DNA of 41,261 bases from Acidocella sp. (lineage in GTDB: Bacteria; Pseudomonadota; Alphaproteobacteria; Acetobacterales; Acetobacteraceae). Made by a program: the position numbers and the translations under genes. Of this stretch, positions 36,611-41,261 are shown in pieces (the stretch's first letter is position 1; each line of letters begins with the position of its first letter). The notes under the pieces are model-generated. The model ran no database searches, was not told the DNA's origin, and saw only the letters and a program-made list of their open reading frames with translations. The stretch is from contig DAIDJU010000154.1 in the NCBI GenBank assembly GCA_027451225.1, forward strand, positions 1 through 41,261. Reading direction: 5' to 3'.

Positions 36611-37144
36611 ATGCGCCTGTTCGTCGCCCTCGACCTCCCCTGGGAGATTAAAGAAGAACTCAGCGATCTCACCTGCAATCTGCCCGGGGCGCGCTGGGTG
36701 CCGACGGATAATTTCCACCTCACGCTGCGCTTCATCGGCGAGGCCAACCGGCTCCAGGCCGAGGAGATCGACTTCGCCCTCGCCACTTTGCGCGGGCGCA
36801 GCTTCACCTTCTCGCTCTCCGGGCTTGGCTGGTTCGAGAAGAACGGGCGGGTGAACACGCTGTATGTGGGGGTGGAGCGCAACCAGGATCTGGCCCGGCT
36901 TCAGGCCAAGGTGGAGACGGCGCTGCACCGCTGCGGCCTGGCGCCGGATAAGCGCAAATTCACCCCGCATGTCACGCTGGCGCGCATGGATATGGGCGTC
37001 ACCCCCGCCCTCACCAGCTTCGTGCAGGCGAACAACCTGTACCGCTCCGCGCCCATCCGGGCCGATAACGTCACCTTGTTCAGCTCCTTCCTGGGCAAAG
37101 ACCAGCCGACTTATACGCCGGAAGCCGAATATGCGCTGGGGTAG
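36611..37144 (+). CDS. thpR: RNA 2',3'-cyclic phosphodiesterase (2'-5' RNA ligase family)
   Basis: A 2H phosphoesterase of 177 residues. Both HxTx catalytic motifs are present: HLTLRF near residue 37 and HVTLAR near 120. The start MRLFVALDLPWEIKEEL and the FLGKD segment near the end match ThpR (LigT), which opens 2',3'-cyclic phosphates on RNA and in vitro joins tRNA halves through 2'-5' bonds. The ATG at 36611 has an AAAGG site; an upstream open stretch to 36539 is not supported. It follows pepP by 75 bases. Confidence 0.93.
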   Translation: MRLFVALDLPWEIKEELSDLTCNLPGARWVPTDNFHLTLRFIGEANRLQAEEIDFALATLRGRSFTFSLSGLGWFEKNGRVNTLYVGVERNQDLARLQAKVETALHRCGLAPDKRKFTPHVTLARMDMGVTPALTSFVQANNLYRSAPIRADNVTLFSSFLGKDQPTYTPEAEYALG

Positions 37145-37256
37145 AGCCTTCGGGGAAATCTCCGCGCAGTCATAAAAACTTCACTCTCAGCCTATGATTT
37201 AGCGCAAGGCCCGCATGCGATGATTCCGTTACCAAATCGGCATCGGGAGAATGATC

Positions 37257-39173
37257 GTGACGGTGAAGAGCGAAATTGTCGGGGTGCTGGGCGAGAGCGA
37301 GGTGCTGCTCCCCGGACTGATCAGCGCGGCGCTGGCGGCCAATGACCGGATCAAGCTGCGCCTCTCCCTGATGCAGGATGCCGCCGCCCATGCGCGGGAG
37401 CCCGCCCGTGCGGCGCGGGGTTTCGCGCCCGAGCTGCGCGCCGCCGGGCTGGATGCCGAGATGCCGGAAACAGCGCTCGGCCAAGCCAAGCTGCTGGGGC
37501 CGGATACGCTGTTCCTCCCTGGCGCGGGTGCGCTGCTCGGCGGGTTGCAGGCCGATCTTGCCGCCATGCTCGCCCCGCTCGCCACCGCCGCCACGCCAGA
37601 GGCTTCGGCGCTCGCAGCGCGGGTGCTCGCACTTCAGCCCGCCCTCATTCCCCAGGCGGCGGATGAGATCACGCTCAGCCGCATCTCCGTCCTCACCAGC
37701 GCCAACCGCGAGGGCGAGGACAAATTCCACGTGCTGGTGATGGATCTGCACAAGGCGCTGAACCAGCTCGCCGCCAACACCGCCGCCGAGAACCTGGACG
37801 GCGCGATGGTCCACGGCCTGACCGAGGACGACCGCCACGCCGTGCGCGCCTTCATGCGCGGGCTGCATCGCACCGCGCCTCTGGCCTTCGGGCATCCGGG
37901 CCTTGGCACCACGGCGGTGCATGGGGCGGCGCATCTGACCATCCAGAACGATATCGGCACCACCGACGCCCATGTGCTGGTGGTGCACGTGACGGAGGCG
38001 GACGTCATCGTCACCTACACGGACATCCACCGCCCCCGCGCGAAATTCTTCATCGACATGTTCGTGGGCTGGGATGTGGAGTGGAGCCCGCTCAACCAGC
38101 GTCAGGCCAAGGGGCTGGAGGAGGAGGCGTTCTACCTCATCAATGGCCGCTTCGCCTCGCCGGACGCAGACAGGCGCAACGCGTTCCTCGGCTTTCTCGC
38201 CTCCAGGCTGGTCTTTCTCATCGACTGGAACAAGGCCCGCAAGGCGCTGCAAATCTTCCTCGGCAAGAACGCCGCCATCGGGCTCCTCACCTGGGCGGCG
38301 GCGCATGATCACGGGCATCGCGCCTTCCTCGAACTCGGGGGCGCGGAGCTGGTGTACGACGCCGTGCACCGCGCCGCCTCGGGGCGCATTCGCTATGGCG
38401 AGCGGCTGGATGACGCGCTGGGCGAGACTGACTGCGTGGAGTTCCTGCGCAACGCCCTGCGCGGCACCGCCCAGGGCCTGAGCGCCGGGCGCAGCGCGCG
38501 GCTGATCCGCGACGAGATCCAGGCCGAACTCTCCCGCCGCTTCGAGACCGCCGAGAGCACGGTGTTCACTTTGCTGGTGCGGCATCTCGGCCTCTCGCGC
38601 TGCATTGCCGAGGGCATCGCCGCCTGCCTGGAAACCCCCGCCCCGGCGCTGGACTACGCCCGCCGCGCCAAGGTCATGGAGGCCAAGGCCGACAAGCTCA
38701 CCGCCCAGCTGCGCGAGCTGGCGGCGCGGATGCAGGGTGCCACGATGCTGCGCCAGGTCATCGACCAGGTGGAAAACACCACCGATGCGCTGGAGGACTG
38801 CGCTTATGTGCTCGGGCTGGTGCCCATGAACGGCGAGTGCGCCACCACATTGCTGCTGCCTCTGGCCGAGATCGTGACCGGCGCGCTCTCCGCCATGATC
38901 CGCGCGGTGGAAGCGGCCTCCCGCCTGCCAGAAGGCCAGCGCGCCGACGCCGCCGAGGCGTTGCAAGCCATCGACGCCGTGGTGAGCCTGGAACGCGAGG
39001 CCGACACCGCCCAGCGCGAGGCCTTCGCCGAGTTGATGCGCGCCCCCTGCACCGATGCCCGCGCCCTGGTGCTGCGCCTGGAACTGACCAAGGCGCTGGA
39101 GGGGGCCACCGACCAGCTATCGCACGCCGCCTTCGCCCTGAGAGACCGCGTGCTGGAGGAGCTTTCCGCATGA
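37257..39173 (+). CDS. PhoU-like (DUF47) fusion protein
   Basis: A 638-residue protein in two parts. Residues about 425-635 are a DUF47/PhoU-like helical domain with two copies of the PhoU acidic motif: MEAKADKLTAQL with QVENTTDALED, and LEREADTAQRE with LTKALEGATDQL. These bind metal and phosphate-related partners in PhoU. The first 420 residues, starting VKSEIVGVLGESEVLLPGLI, are unknown to me; they include a beta-rich stretch around 238 (VLVVHVTEADVIVTYTD) and a His-rich stretch AAHDHGHRAF. The ATG at 37251 abuts a GGGAGA site too closely; a GTG at 37257 is seven bases from it, so I start there. It overlaps the next gene by four bases. No phosphate transporter gene is visible. Confidence 0.8.
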   Translation: MTVKSEIVGVLGESEVLLPGLISAALAANDRIKLRLSLMQDAAAHAREPARAARGFAPELRAAGLDAEMPETALGQAKLLGPDTLFLPGAGALLGGLQADLAAMLAPLATAATPEASALAARVLALQPALIPQAADEITLSRISVLTSANREGEDKFHVLVMDLHKALNQLAANTAAENLDGAMVHGLTEDDRHAVRAFMRGLHRTAPLAFGHPGLGTTAVHGAAHLTIQNDIGTTDAHVLVVHVTEADVIVTYTDIHRPRAKFFIDMFVGWDVEWSPLNQRQAKGLEEEAFYLINGRFASPDADRRNAFLGFLASRLVFLIDWNKARKALQIFLGKNAAIGLLTWAAAHDHGHRAFLELGGAELVYDAVHRAASGRIRYGERLDDALGETDCVEFLRNALRGTAQGLSAGRSARLIRDEIQAELSRRFETAESTVFTLLVRHLGLSRCIAEGIAACLETPAPALDYARRAKVMEAKADKLTAQLRELAARMQGATMLRQVIDQVENTTDALEDCAYVLGLVPMNGECATTLLLPLAEIVTGALSAMIRAVEAASRLPEGQRADAAEALQAIDAVVSLEREADTAQREAFAELMRAPCTDARALVLRLELTKALEGATDQLSHAAFALRDRVLEELSA

Positions 39174-40741
39174 GCAAGTTCGCCCCGCTGTTCATCGGCC
39201 TGCCCGGCCACGCCAAGGCCCTGACCAAGGAGGTGGCGGGCAACAAGGCCGCACAGCTCTGGCGGATGAGCCATCTCGGCCTGCCGGTGCCGCCCGCCTT
39301 TGTGCTGCCCGCCACGCTCTGCGCCGCCCTCAACGCCGGCGAGGCCGAGGCCCTGCACGCGCTGGAGCACGGCTTGCGCAAGGGCATCGCCGAGCTGGAG
39401 GCCTTCACCGGCCGGGGCTTTGGCGATGTGCGCGCGCCGCTGCTGGTTTCGGTGCGCTCAGGGGCCGCGCAGTCCATGCCGGGGATGCTGGAGACGATCC
39501 TGGATGTGGGGCTGAACGAGCGCACGCTGCGCGGGCTGATCGGCCTCACCGGCAATCCGCGTCTGGCGTGGGACAGCTTCCGCCGCTTCCTACAAATGTA
39601 CGCCGAGGTGGTGCTGGAAACGCCCAAGACCGGGTTCGAGACCGCGCTGGCCGACATGCTGCACGCTGAAGACGCGGCCAGCGAGGCGGAGCTGGACTCG
39701 GAGGCGCTGGAACGCCTGACCCTGCGCTTCCAGGCACTGGCGGGCGGGGTGCCGGAAGACCCGATGCAGCAGCTGCTTGAGGCCGCGCGCGCCGTGTACC
39801 GCTCCTGGGAGGGCGAGCGCGCCCGCGAATACCGCCGCCTGAACCAGCTTGAGGGACTGACCGGCACGGCGGTGACGGTGCAGTTGATGGTGTTCGGCAA
39901 TGCCGGGCAGAAATCCGGGGCGGGGGTGGCGTTCTCGCGCAACCCGGCCACGGGGGAGCGGGAATTTTATGCCGATTACCTGAGCAACGCCCAGGGCGAG
40001 GATGTGGTGGCGGGCCGCCGCCCCACAGGCGGGGCCGGGGCGCTGGCTCTGCTGCTGCCCGAGGTAGCGCGCGAGTTGGAGGACGGCGCGCATCGCCTGG
40101 AGGATGAATACCGGGACATACAGGACATCGAATTCACCATCGAGCACGGCAAACTCTATTTTCTGCAAACCCGCTCGGCCAAGCGCACCCCGCGCGCGGC
40201 GCTGCGCATTCTGGTGGATTTCGTCGCCGAAGGGCTGCTGACGCCGAAAGAGGCGCTGGCCAGAGCCGAGGCCATCGACCTCGAAGCCGCCCGGGTAACG
40301 CGCTTTGCCGACACGCACCCCCCGCTCGCCACCGCCATACCCGCCGCCCCCGGCGTGGCCAGCGGCCGCGTTGCCTTTACCTCCGAGCGCGCCAAGGTAC
40401 TGGCTGAAAGCGGCGAGAAAGTGATCCTGGTGCGGCACGACACCGCCACCGAGGACGTGGCCGGGTTCGCCGTGGCCTCGGGCATTCTCACCGCCACGGG
40501 CGGGCGCACCGCCCATGCCGCCGTGGTGGCGCGCCAGCTCGGGCGCGTCTGCCTTGTGGGCTGCACGGCGTTGCGCCTGCTGCCCAATGGCGCGGAGCTG
40601 GCGGGGCAGGTTTTCACCGAAGGCGACTGGCTCTCGCTGGATGGTGAAACCGGCGCGGTGACGCTGGGCAAGCGGGAGATCGTCTCCGAGCTTCCCGCCC
40701 GGGAAATGGCCGCCCTGGCCTCCTGGCGCGCTGGACAATAA
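39170..40741 (+). CDS. PPDK-like phosphotransferase lacking the PEP/pyruvate barrel
   Basis: A 523-residue protein matching only the N-terminal two thirds of pyruvate phosphate dikinase. The ATP-grasp part has VSVRSGAAQSMPGMLETILD, RLAWDSFRRFLQMYAEVVL, GVAFSRNPATGEREFY, NAQGEDVVAGRRP and IEFTIEHGKLYFLQTRS. The swivelling domain keeps GGRTAHAAVVARQLG with the phosphorylated His at residue 449. The C-terminal TIM barrel that binds PEP/pyruvate (about 350 residues in full-length PPDK) is absent and the gene ends cleanly in TAA. So it should form a phosphohistidine from ATP, but passes it to an unknown acceptor, perhaps a neighbour's product. It starts by ATGA overlap with the DUF47 gene. Confidence 0.85.
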   Translation: MSKFAPLFIGLPGHAKALTKEVAGNKAAQLWRMSHLGLPVPPAFVLPATLCAALNAGEAEALHALEHGLRKGIAELEAFTGRGFGDVRAPLLVSVRSGAAQSMPGMLETILDVGLNERTLRGLIGLTGNPRLAWDSFRRFLQMYAEVVLETPKTGFETALADMLHAEDAASEAELDSEALERLTLRFQALAGGVPEDPMQQLLEAARAVYRSWEGERAREYRRLNQLEGLTGTAVTVQLMVFGNAGQKSGAGVAFSRNPATGEREFYADYLSNAQGEDVVAGRRPTGGAGALALLLPEVARELEDGAHRLEDEYRDIQDIEFTIEHGKLYFLQTRSAKRTPRAALRILVDFVAEGLLTPKEALARAEAIDLEAARVTRFADTHPPLATAIPAAPGVASGRVAFTSERAKVLAESGEKVILVRHDTATEDVAGFAVASGILTATGGRTAHAAVVARQLGRVCLVGCTALRLLPNGAELAGQVFTEGDWLSLDGETGAVTLGKREIVSELPAREMAALASWRAGQ

Positions 40742-40754
40742 AGAAAGCAGGACT

Positions 40755-41261
40755 ATGCTGACCTCACCACAGCCCAGCCCCCCTGCCATGATGACCGACC
40801 CCGTTGCCGTGCCTGTGCAGACCCTGCGCTTTCTGGCCACCGCCGAAACCCTGGCGGCCCTGCCCGGTAGCCCGCTGCTGGACACACCCACCACCCCGCC
40901 ACGCGCCAAACGCAGCATCTGGCAATATTACGACAGCCCGGACTTCACCCTGGCGCTGCACCGCGTGTTTCTGCGCATGTCCAAAACACGGCGCGGCCAC
41001 CGGCTGGAGTTGCACATGCCGGGCGTGGACATGGCGGCGGATATTCCCGGCGCCACGCCGGACCTCGCGGCGCTGGGCCCGGATTGCGAGGCGGCCATCA
41101 CCACGCTGCTGGATGGCGCGGCGCTGCACCCGGCCTTCACCACGGACATCAAGCGCCTCACCCGCCGCGCGGGCGAAGTTGAGATCGGGCTGGAGACCGG
41201 CAACATCCTGGCCGGAGCCGAGAAGCAGCATGTAAGGGAAGTGGCGCTCACCGGCCCGGGC
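40755..41261 (+). CDS. divergent CYTH-domain protein, C-terminus beyond the window
   Basis: The 169 visible residues run off the right edge in frame. They resemble the CYTH (triphosphate tunnel) fold: a first strand TLRFLATAETLAALPGSPLL, then QYYDSPDFTLALHRVFLRMS, matching the family's Y-F/Y-D-T/S-P-D..L...LRLR block, then TDIKRLTRR, VEIGLETGNILAG and VREVAL, matching the paired acidic strands. The hallmark ExExK of the first strand is not intact (VQTLR instead), so metal binding may be weak or lost. CYTH proteins cleave inorganic or organic triphosphates and are often fused to CHAD, a polyphosphate-binding domain, which could lie past the edge. It begins 13 bases after the PPDK-like gene. 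Confidence 0.65.
   Translation, partial: MLTSPQPSPPAMMTDPVAVPVQTLRFLATAETLAALPGSPLLDTPTTPPRAKRSIWQYYDSPDFTLALHRVFLRMSKTRRGHRLELHMPGVDMAADIPGATPDLAALGPDCEAAITTLLDGAALHPAFTTDIKRLTRRAGEVEIGLETGNILAGAEKQHVREVALTGPG

Follow-up and report, generated by a model that had tools for sequence, protein, structure and literature searches.

Two adjacent genes at the right end of an Acidocella sp. contig (GenBank assembly GCA_027451225.1, DAIDJU010000154.1) form a fixed two-gene unit, in which a fusion protein with a PhoU/DUF47-like C-terminal bundle (gene 1) is followed by a pyruvate phosphate dikinase (PPDK)-like enzyme without its pyruvate barrel (gene 2). The window analysed here is the entire contig of 41261 bases, whose right end holds three open reading frames in the same direction (+), i.e., gene 1, gene 2 and the 5′ part of gene 3 (Table 1). 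We see an even chance that the products of genes 1 and 2 work together as a two-component dikinase, each being one subunit of a single phosphotransfer device. Dikinases split over two proteins, barrel-less PPDKs and PhoU proteins are already known; what appears to be new is the fixed pair with a fusion of an orphan domain to a PhoU-like bundle. In the literature searched, no publication combined DUF47 with a dikinase and none, going by titles and the starts of abstracts, dealt with the gene 1-gene 2 pair. The kinase activity of a barrel-less PPDK was shown only recently, and as the family described here has a single dedicated partner at every readable locus, the destination of its phosphoryl group could be approached with two proteins.

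Linkage and distribution of the pair

Locus counts refer to the best 80 of 149 gene 1 relatives, with genes called by our own gene caller. Gene 2 lies directly 3′ of gene 1 in 79 of the 80 loci, and the contig of the 80th ends at that point. Where both genes were called (77 loci), they overlap by ATGA in 29, lie within 60 nucleotides (nt) of each other in 46 and are further apart in 2. No natural gene 1-gene 2 fusion was seen among the loci examined; apparent long fused frames in L017 and L064 on a first crude map proved to be two genes on a second. A preliminary description of this DNA had proposed a three-gene phosphate module, packed with an ATGA overlap and a 13-base gap behind its own upstream gap. 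The packing agrees with the coordinates (ATGA joins genes 1 and 2, 13 bases separate genes 2 and 3, and the nearest gene 5′ of gene 1 ends at 37144). The module does not survive as a three-gene system, because a CYTH gene such as gene 3 adjoins the pair in only 5 of the 80 loci, and we show that the unit comprises two genes with gene 3 as a loose neighbour outside it.

Gene 1 was found in 6 of 61 relatives, the genome of the window included, and in 11 of 385 alphaproteobacterial genomes, all 11 of which hold the pair intact (10 from the listed matches, G302 on inspection). Two PPDK-like matches at E ≤ 1e-100 occurred in 13 of the 385 genomes, 11 of which are the gene 1 genomes. Co-occurrence across alphaproteobacteria, which the preliminary description had named as a check on its module, is borne out for genes 1 and 2; most of the 80 loci have no CYTH gene directly beside the pair. 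In a phylum sample, gene 1 matches appeared in 5 of 398 genomes, one of them PhoU-only, and the orphan domain alone as query returned 4 of the 398, identical to the four pair genomes; G596 and G724 of this sample also carry the pair. All 19 PPDK-like matches fetched away from gene 1 (the 18 best-scoring listed and one from G143) continue in frame into the barrel, whereas a paired control does not. Frame length was dropped as a barrel test, because a frame extends between stop codons and the values for two genuine pair members were 891 and 1059.

A tree was built from 33 paired rows (31 of the 77 loci, the window and the protein from a plasmid of the betaproteobacterium Aquabacterium) and 11 PPDK-like rows from elsewhere, among them truncated proteins of M. 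avium and R. opacus. In it, the paired gene 2 proteins form one clade with support of 100/100. The hosts are scattered soil and acid-water bacteria. Acidocella aromatica is the closest named relative (gene 1 identity 91%), and outside Alphaproteobacteria the pair is found on plasmid pTB101 of the betaproteobacterium Aquabacterium olei (L145, 6966-10533; gene 1 identity 36%). Three of 72,556 plasmid records contain gene 1, and both of those inspected hold the intact pair, annotated as 'phosphate transport regulator' or 'DUF47 family protein' (gene 1) and 'PEP/pyruvate-binding domain-containing protein' (gene 2; PEP, phosphoenolpyruvate). We noticed that gene 1 of G032 (L012), of the same genus as the window, is only 38% identical to that of the window, which suggests that this copy was acquired separately, perhaps horizontally.

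The dikinase-like protein and its partner

Gene 2 matches PPDK_N (E = 1.1e-37) and the PEP-utilizers mobile domain (2.1e-19), and its product aligns to residues 13-511 of an 874-residue PPDK with known structure, whose pyruvate barrel follows residue 511. Because the alignment stops there, gene 2 lacks the barrel, as the preliminary description had said. In agreement, its stop codon at 40739 comes before any PEP/pyruvate barrel, and its match to the full-PPDK family TIGR01828 reaches position 522 of 865 with 534.7 bits, below the cut-off of 843.45; against the dikinase family NF004531 (PRK05878) it scores 447.3 bits, under the curated cut-off of 456. Residues K26, R96, D319, E321, Q333, R335 and H449, which occupy the PPDK catalytic positions, are identical in all 44 aligned rows (33 paired, 11 others).

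The genome of the window also encodes a full-length PPDK of 892 residues, and a search with PF02896, the barrel, gave four matches in it, every one in frames of 597-893 amino acids, with no stand-alone barrel. With a full PPDK present and no stand-alone barrel, gene 2 cannot be one part of a divided PPDK. Among studied proteins, its nearest relative is VadK (Rv1127c), a barrel-less PPDK of mycobacteria that autophosphorylates His422 with ATP and Mg (PMC13400623). Because gene 2 keeps the parts of VadK, its product likely makes phosphohistidine from ATP, and this claim of the preliminary description appears well founded by homology.

Gene 1 is a fusion of a different kind. Its residues are numbered after P0001, with translation begun at 37254; ATG at 37251 is a second in-frame start candidate, and A. 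aromatica uses GTG. P0001 itself has no accepted Pfam match, but among 56 aligned members 21 match PhoU_div/DUF47 (best E = 2.7e-7) and 5 match PhoU in Pfam, and 6 match TIGR00153 in NCBIfam. Positions 456-638 of the 643 in the gene 1 profile match the solved PhoU-like structure 3l39 (E = 1.3e-4), as does the predicted structure (E = 7.1e-4, TMt 0.81). The DUF47/PhoU-like fusion of the preliminary description is thus confirmed, with approximately the last 180 residues being PhoU/DUF47-like and about 455 residues of unclassified sequence before them. Four ExxxD motifs in the bundle are invariant among the 56 (E476/D480, E507/D511, E580/D584 and E616/D620). A plain DUF47 protein is ruled out, the first 455 residues being without a convincing match.

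Within this unclassified part, the orphan domain has no convincing family match in Pfam or NCBIfam across the 56 members scanned: outside PhoU/DUF47, the best E value in any member was 0.0017 in Pfam (BLOC1_2, located at 470-520 in P0001 itself) and 0.023 in NCBIfam. AlphaFold2 gave a predicted local distance difference test score (pLDDT) of 89.2 and a predicted TM-score (pTM) of 0.68 for the whole chain, and 89.6 and 0.87 for residues 76-412. Foldseek searches of residues 76-412 against the PDB returned nothing at E ≤ 0.001; the best match (an Arp2/3 subunit, with ZraS next; E = 0.022, TM ~0.2) was treated as noise. Invariant in the 56 aligned members are H159, H166, N170, H214, Q231, N232, D233, H240, D257, H259, R262, D324, N326, K327, R329 and K330, a set of His, Asp, Asn, Lys and Arg residues that looks like an active site.

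Upstream box, proposed transfer and neighbouring genes

A common pattern, rTGACA-N5-ATGA followed by ATGATCTrGCGCAA, lies 40-85 nt 5′ of the gene 1 start (loci L014-L093). The box pattern was present before gene 1 in 61 of 78 loci but, for other genes of these loci, in just 31 of 896 upstream regions (Fisher P = 2e-57, ignoring relatedness of loci). Because the pattern was drawn from these same sites, the figure for gene 1 partly reflects fitting, and many of the loci are relatives. Counted by gene 1 identity clusters, the box is present in 33 of 46 (at 80%), 17 of 28 (70%) and 7 of 11 (60%). When the regions were initially scored, without fitting, for symmetric FNR half-sites, no clear excess was seen (9 of 77 at P < 0.05 vs 9.2% of 816 control genes), and the box became apparent only with the redefined pattern. 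In the genome of the window, the 16-base form with at most one mismatch gave 2 matches, the window site being exact, and the reversed-pattern control also gave 2; in six other genomes the 17-base form with at most two mismatches gave 70 matches vs 16 for the reversed control.

The box resembles that of FixK2, published as TTGA/C-N6-T/GCAA with examples including ATGATCTGGGTCAA, TTGATCCAGCGCAA and TTGACCTGCCTCAA, of which ATGATCTGGGTCAA also has A first, as in most gene 1 boxes (PMC9104804). We infer that in many hosts the pair operon is probably turned on at oxygen scarcity through this CRP/FNR-type box. By eye, the upstream ATGACA, spaced 11 bp from ATGA, also resembles a reversed Pho box.

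In the transfer that we propose, the gene 2 protein would bind ATP in its PPDK-type ATP-grasp domain and phosphorylate its own H449 on the swivel domain, which would then serve a site on the gene 1 protein, in place of the pyruvate barrel, with the phosphoryl group. The acceptor would be a ligand held in the orphan domain, or one of the domain's own residues; the ExxxD-bearing PhoU-like bundle would most likely set specificity or couple the reaction to phosphate or metal status, and the operon would be expressed under low oxygen through the CRP/FNR-type box. Gene 1 is placed as the putative acceptor because the swivel normally reaches the PPDK barrel and gene 1 is the only constant protein beside gene 2. 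The biochemical action of PhoU-like domains is poorly understood, and the pair offers a possible catalytic context for one, perhaps with a link to oxygen control. A more far-reaching version, in which the orphan domain would be a new catalytic fold that takes the phosphoryl group from a PPDK-type phosphohistidine and acts on a phosphate store or energy-rich phosphate under oxygen limitation, with the PhoU bundle as phosphate or metal sensor, seems doubtful to us.

Several observations weigh against the proposed transfer. The box is absent in 17 of the 78 loci, although L044 among them has a near match by eye, and 53 of 62 sites, the window included, begin with A, which departs from the FixK2 definition. 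As no fold matches the orphan domain significantly, its conserved residues are the one feature that points to an acceptor role. Strict linkage could also reflect a regulator and its target. Known two-component dikinases part the ATP-grasp domain from the swivel (PMC12167813), whereas gene 2 holds both, and VadK is proposed to regulate enzymes rather than to feed a substrate (PMC13400623).

An alternative that we regard as possible, if rather unlikely, is that gene 2 encodes a VadK-like regulatory histidine kinase for metabolic enzymes elsewhere, with gene 1 as a phosphate or metal sensor or adaptor through its PhoU bundle. PhoU domains are known regulators, and a sensor role of gene 1 beside such a kinase suits the observations almost as well as an acceptor role. 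VadK, itself without a barrel and autophosphorylating, co-precipitates with methylcitrate enzymes, and its solubility improves on co-expression with its operon partner Rv1126c (PMC13400623). However, the paired proteins fall in a clade apart from the mycobacterial truncated PPDK, whose neighbour is by eye unlike gene 1 and, at E 0.001, matches nothing in Pfam, and the genes around the pair vary between hosts, so that no common metabolic target is visible.

This variation is apparent in the 139 neighbours scanned (138 of 148 dereplicated neighbours within two genes, plus the L026 CYTH-CHAD gene), among which the commonest families were GST (5), ADH (4), nitroreductase (3) and CYTH (3), with no dominant partner. 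A P-type ATPase cluster lies near the pair in 6 of the 80 loci and a phosphoketolase in 18, lineage-bound or scattered. Polyphosphate and acetyl phosphate are candidate partners named from neighbourhoods only.

Acetyl phosphate enters with an acetate kinase gene that, in 13 of the 80 loci, all named Bradyrhizobium, has the orientation of the pair and lies 81-87 nt upstream; in L049 (4294-11565), where the acetate kinase family was checked, a phosphoketolase precedes it. In L067 (4172-6817), an acetate kinase-type gene and a phosphate acetyltransferase-type gene (PTA_PTB + MaoC-type) stand beside the pair on the opposite strand. Such surroundings would suit a reaction in reverse, in which gene 1 takes phosphate from a donor (e.g., acetyl phosphate) and the gene 2 phosphohistidine, with AMP and pyrophosphate, yields ATP at low oxygen. 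The PPDK reaction can run either way (PMC13400623), and in B. diazoefficiens the phosphoketolase-acetate kinase operon bll2518-bll2517 depends on FixK2 (PMC9104804). The main text of PMC6515984 has the phosphoketolase bll2518 in its microoxia comparison but does not mention bll2514-bll2517, a dikinase or PhoU; bll2514, bll2515 and bll2516, possible homologues, were not named in the literature searched. As acetate kinase neighbourhoods are limited to one genus and binding of acetyl phosphate is purely hypothetical, we hold the reverse direction to be very improbable.

Polyphosphate enters with gene 3, which the preliminary description had called a CYTH protein. The full relative in A. aromatica is CYTH + CHAD (CHAD E = 1.1e-52) and answers the earlier call to look for a CHAD domain; the window copy itself is cut off by the contig end, reaches 23.0 bits against a CYTH cut-off of 23.2, and, like that in L014 (11499-13025), has its ExExK replaced. 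ExExK is the N-terminal motif of catalytic CYTH proteins (PMC8233210), and it is kept in the CYTH genes of L026, L029, L030, L032 and L069. In the Acidocella CYTH-CHAD protein, which has lost it, the CYTH part may serve for binding or as a scaffold only. A CYTH gene lies directly beside the pair in L014, L026, L029, L030 and L032 and a few genes away in L069, which looks like more than chance for an uncommon family. In the other 75 of the 80 loci, none was found (an upstream neighbour was called in 75 of the 80 and a downstream one also in 75) directly beside the pair, and in A. aminolytica (L036) and a further Acidocella (L015) the gene after the pair is something other than CYTH.

It is unlikely, in our estimate markedly so, that gene 1 and the CYTH-CHAD protein present polyphosphate as the final acceptor of the phosphoryl group. 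The CHAD domain of the full relative, the CYTH genes beside the pair in three settings, a PhoU gene that precedes the pair in L044 (5343-6014) and the location of CHAD proteins on polyphosphate granules (PMC10892726) speak for this destination, whereas the 75 loci with no CYTH directly beside the pair, the loss of ExExK in the window and the failure to recognise, by eye, a polyphosphate kinase among the neighbours listed speak against it.

Other neighbours were noted in passing. L028 (6206-6943) and L064 (5012-5749) each have a PstB-like (by eye) ABC ATPase at most two genes away from the pair. In the window, a LigT/2′-5′ RNA ligase-type gene (36611-37144) is immediately upstream, and in L041 (5978-7896) a DUF1045 gene of the LigT/2′-5′ RNA ligase superfamily and an amidohydrolase (PhnM-like by eye) come before the pair.

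Table 1 Features at the right end of the window.
Feature	Position	Strand	Description
CRP/FNR (FixK2-like) box	37194..37207	+	ATGATTTAGCGCAA; 63 nt upstream of the gene 1 GTG
Gene 1 (P0001)	37257..39173	+	Orphan domain fused to PhoU/DUF47-like bundle; GTG start 37257, stop TGA 39173
Orphan domain of gene 1	37479..38489	+	Residues 76-412 of P0001; alignment of 56, AlphaFold2
PhoU/DUF47-like C-terminal bundle of gene 1	38619..39167 (ends approximate)	+	Profile, Pfam and 3l39 matches
Gene 2 (P0002)	39170..40741	+	Barrel-less PPDK-like dikinase, ATP-grasp + phosphohistidine swivel domain; ATG 39170, TAA 40741
RTAH of gene 2	40505..40516	+	Within phosphohistidine motif GGRTAHAAVVAR; putative catalytic H449
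Gene 3 (5′ part only)	40755..41261	+	CYTH domain of CYTH-CHAD protein; first 169 codons

Relation to known systems

The preliminary description knew of no named system with this composition, which stands for the pair in the literature searched; related systems, VadK and PpsAB, CreHI and HpeHI, have already been named. VadK and gene 2 are alike in having an ATP-grasp and a swivel domain with the catalytic His, no pyruvate barrel and an operon partner. They differ in that VadK lies near methylcitrate genes (PMC13400623), whereas gene 2 neighbourhoods vary by host. An M. avium plasmid protein, used as a stand-in for VadK and presumed to be related to Rv1127c, is separate from the gene 2 clade (100/100, 11 outgroup rows), and its neighbour is a 201-residue protein without a Pfam match, whereas that of gene 2 is the orphan-PhoU fusion. 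On the M. avium plasmid pP7a (L148, 5001-11256), this truncated PPDK and the 201-residue protein are found with a PEP-utilizing enzyme and a hypothetical protein nearby, possibly two dikinase systems side by side.

Like PpsAB, CreHI and HpeHI, the gene 1-gene 2 pair would divide dikinase activity over two proteins and use a phosphohistidine carrier, and its second subunit is encoded beside the first; for HpeHI, a split dikinase mechanism is described (PMC12167813). These three resemble rifampin phosphotransferase and are split between ATP-grasp and swivel (PMC12167813), whereas gene 2 keeps the two together and its partner has an unrelated fold. Compared with PPDK, gene 2 has the catalytic residues in common, and only PPDK has the PEP/pyruvate barrel. 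The A. aromatica relative of gene 3 has the domain order of CYTH-CHAD proteins of the YgiF type, from which the Acidocella copies depart by their replaced ExExK. Finally, gene 1 shares with PhoU/DUF47 proteins its C-terminal 180 residues, the ExxxD motifs and the 3l39 fold match, and differs from them in being fused to about 455 unclassified residues and tied to a dikinase.

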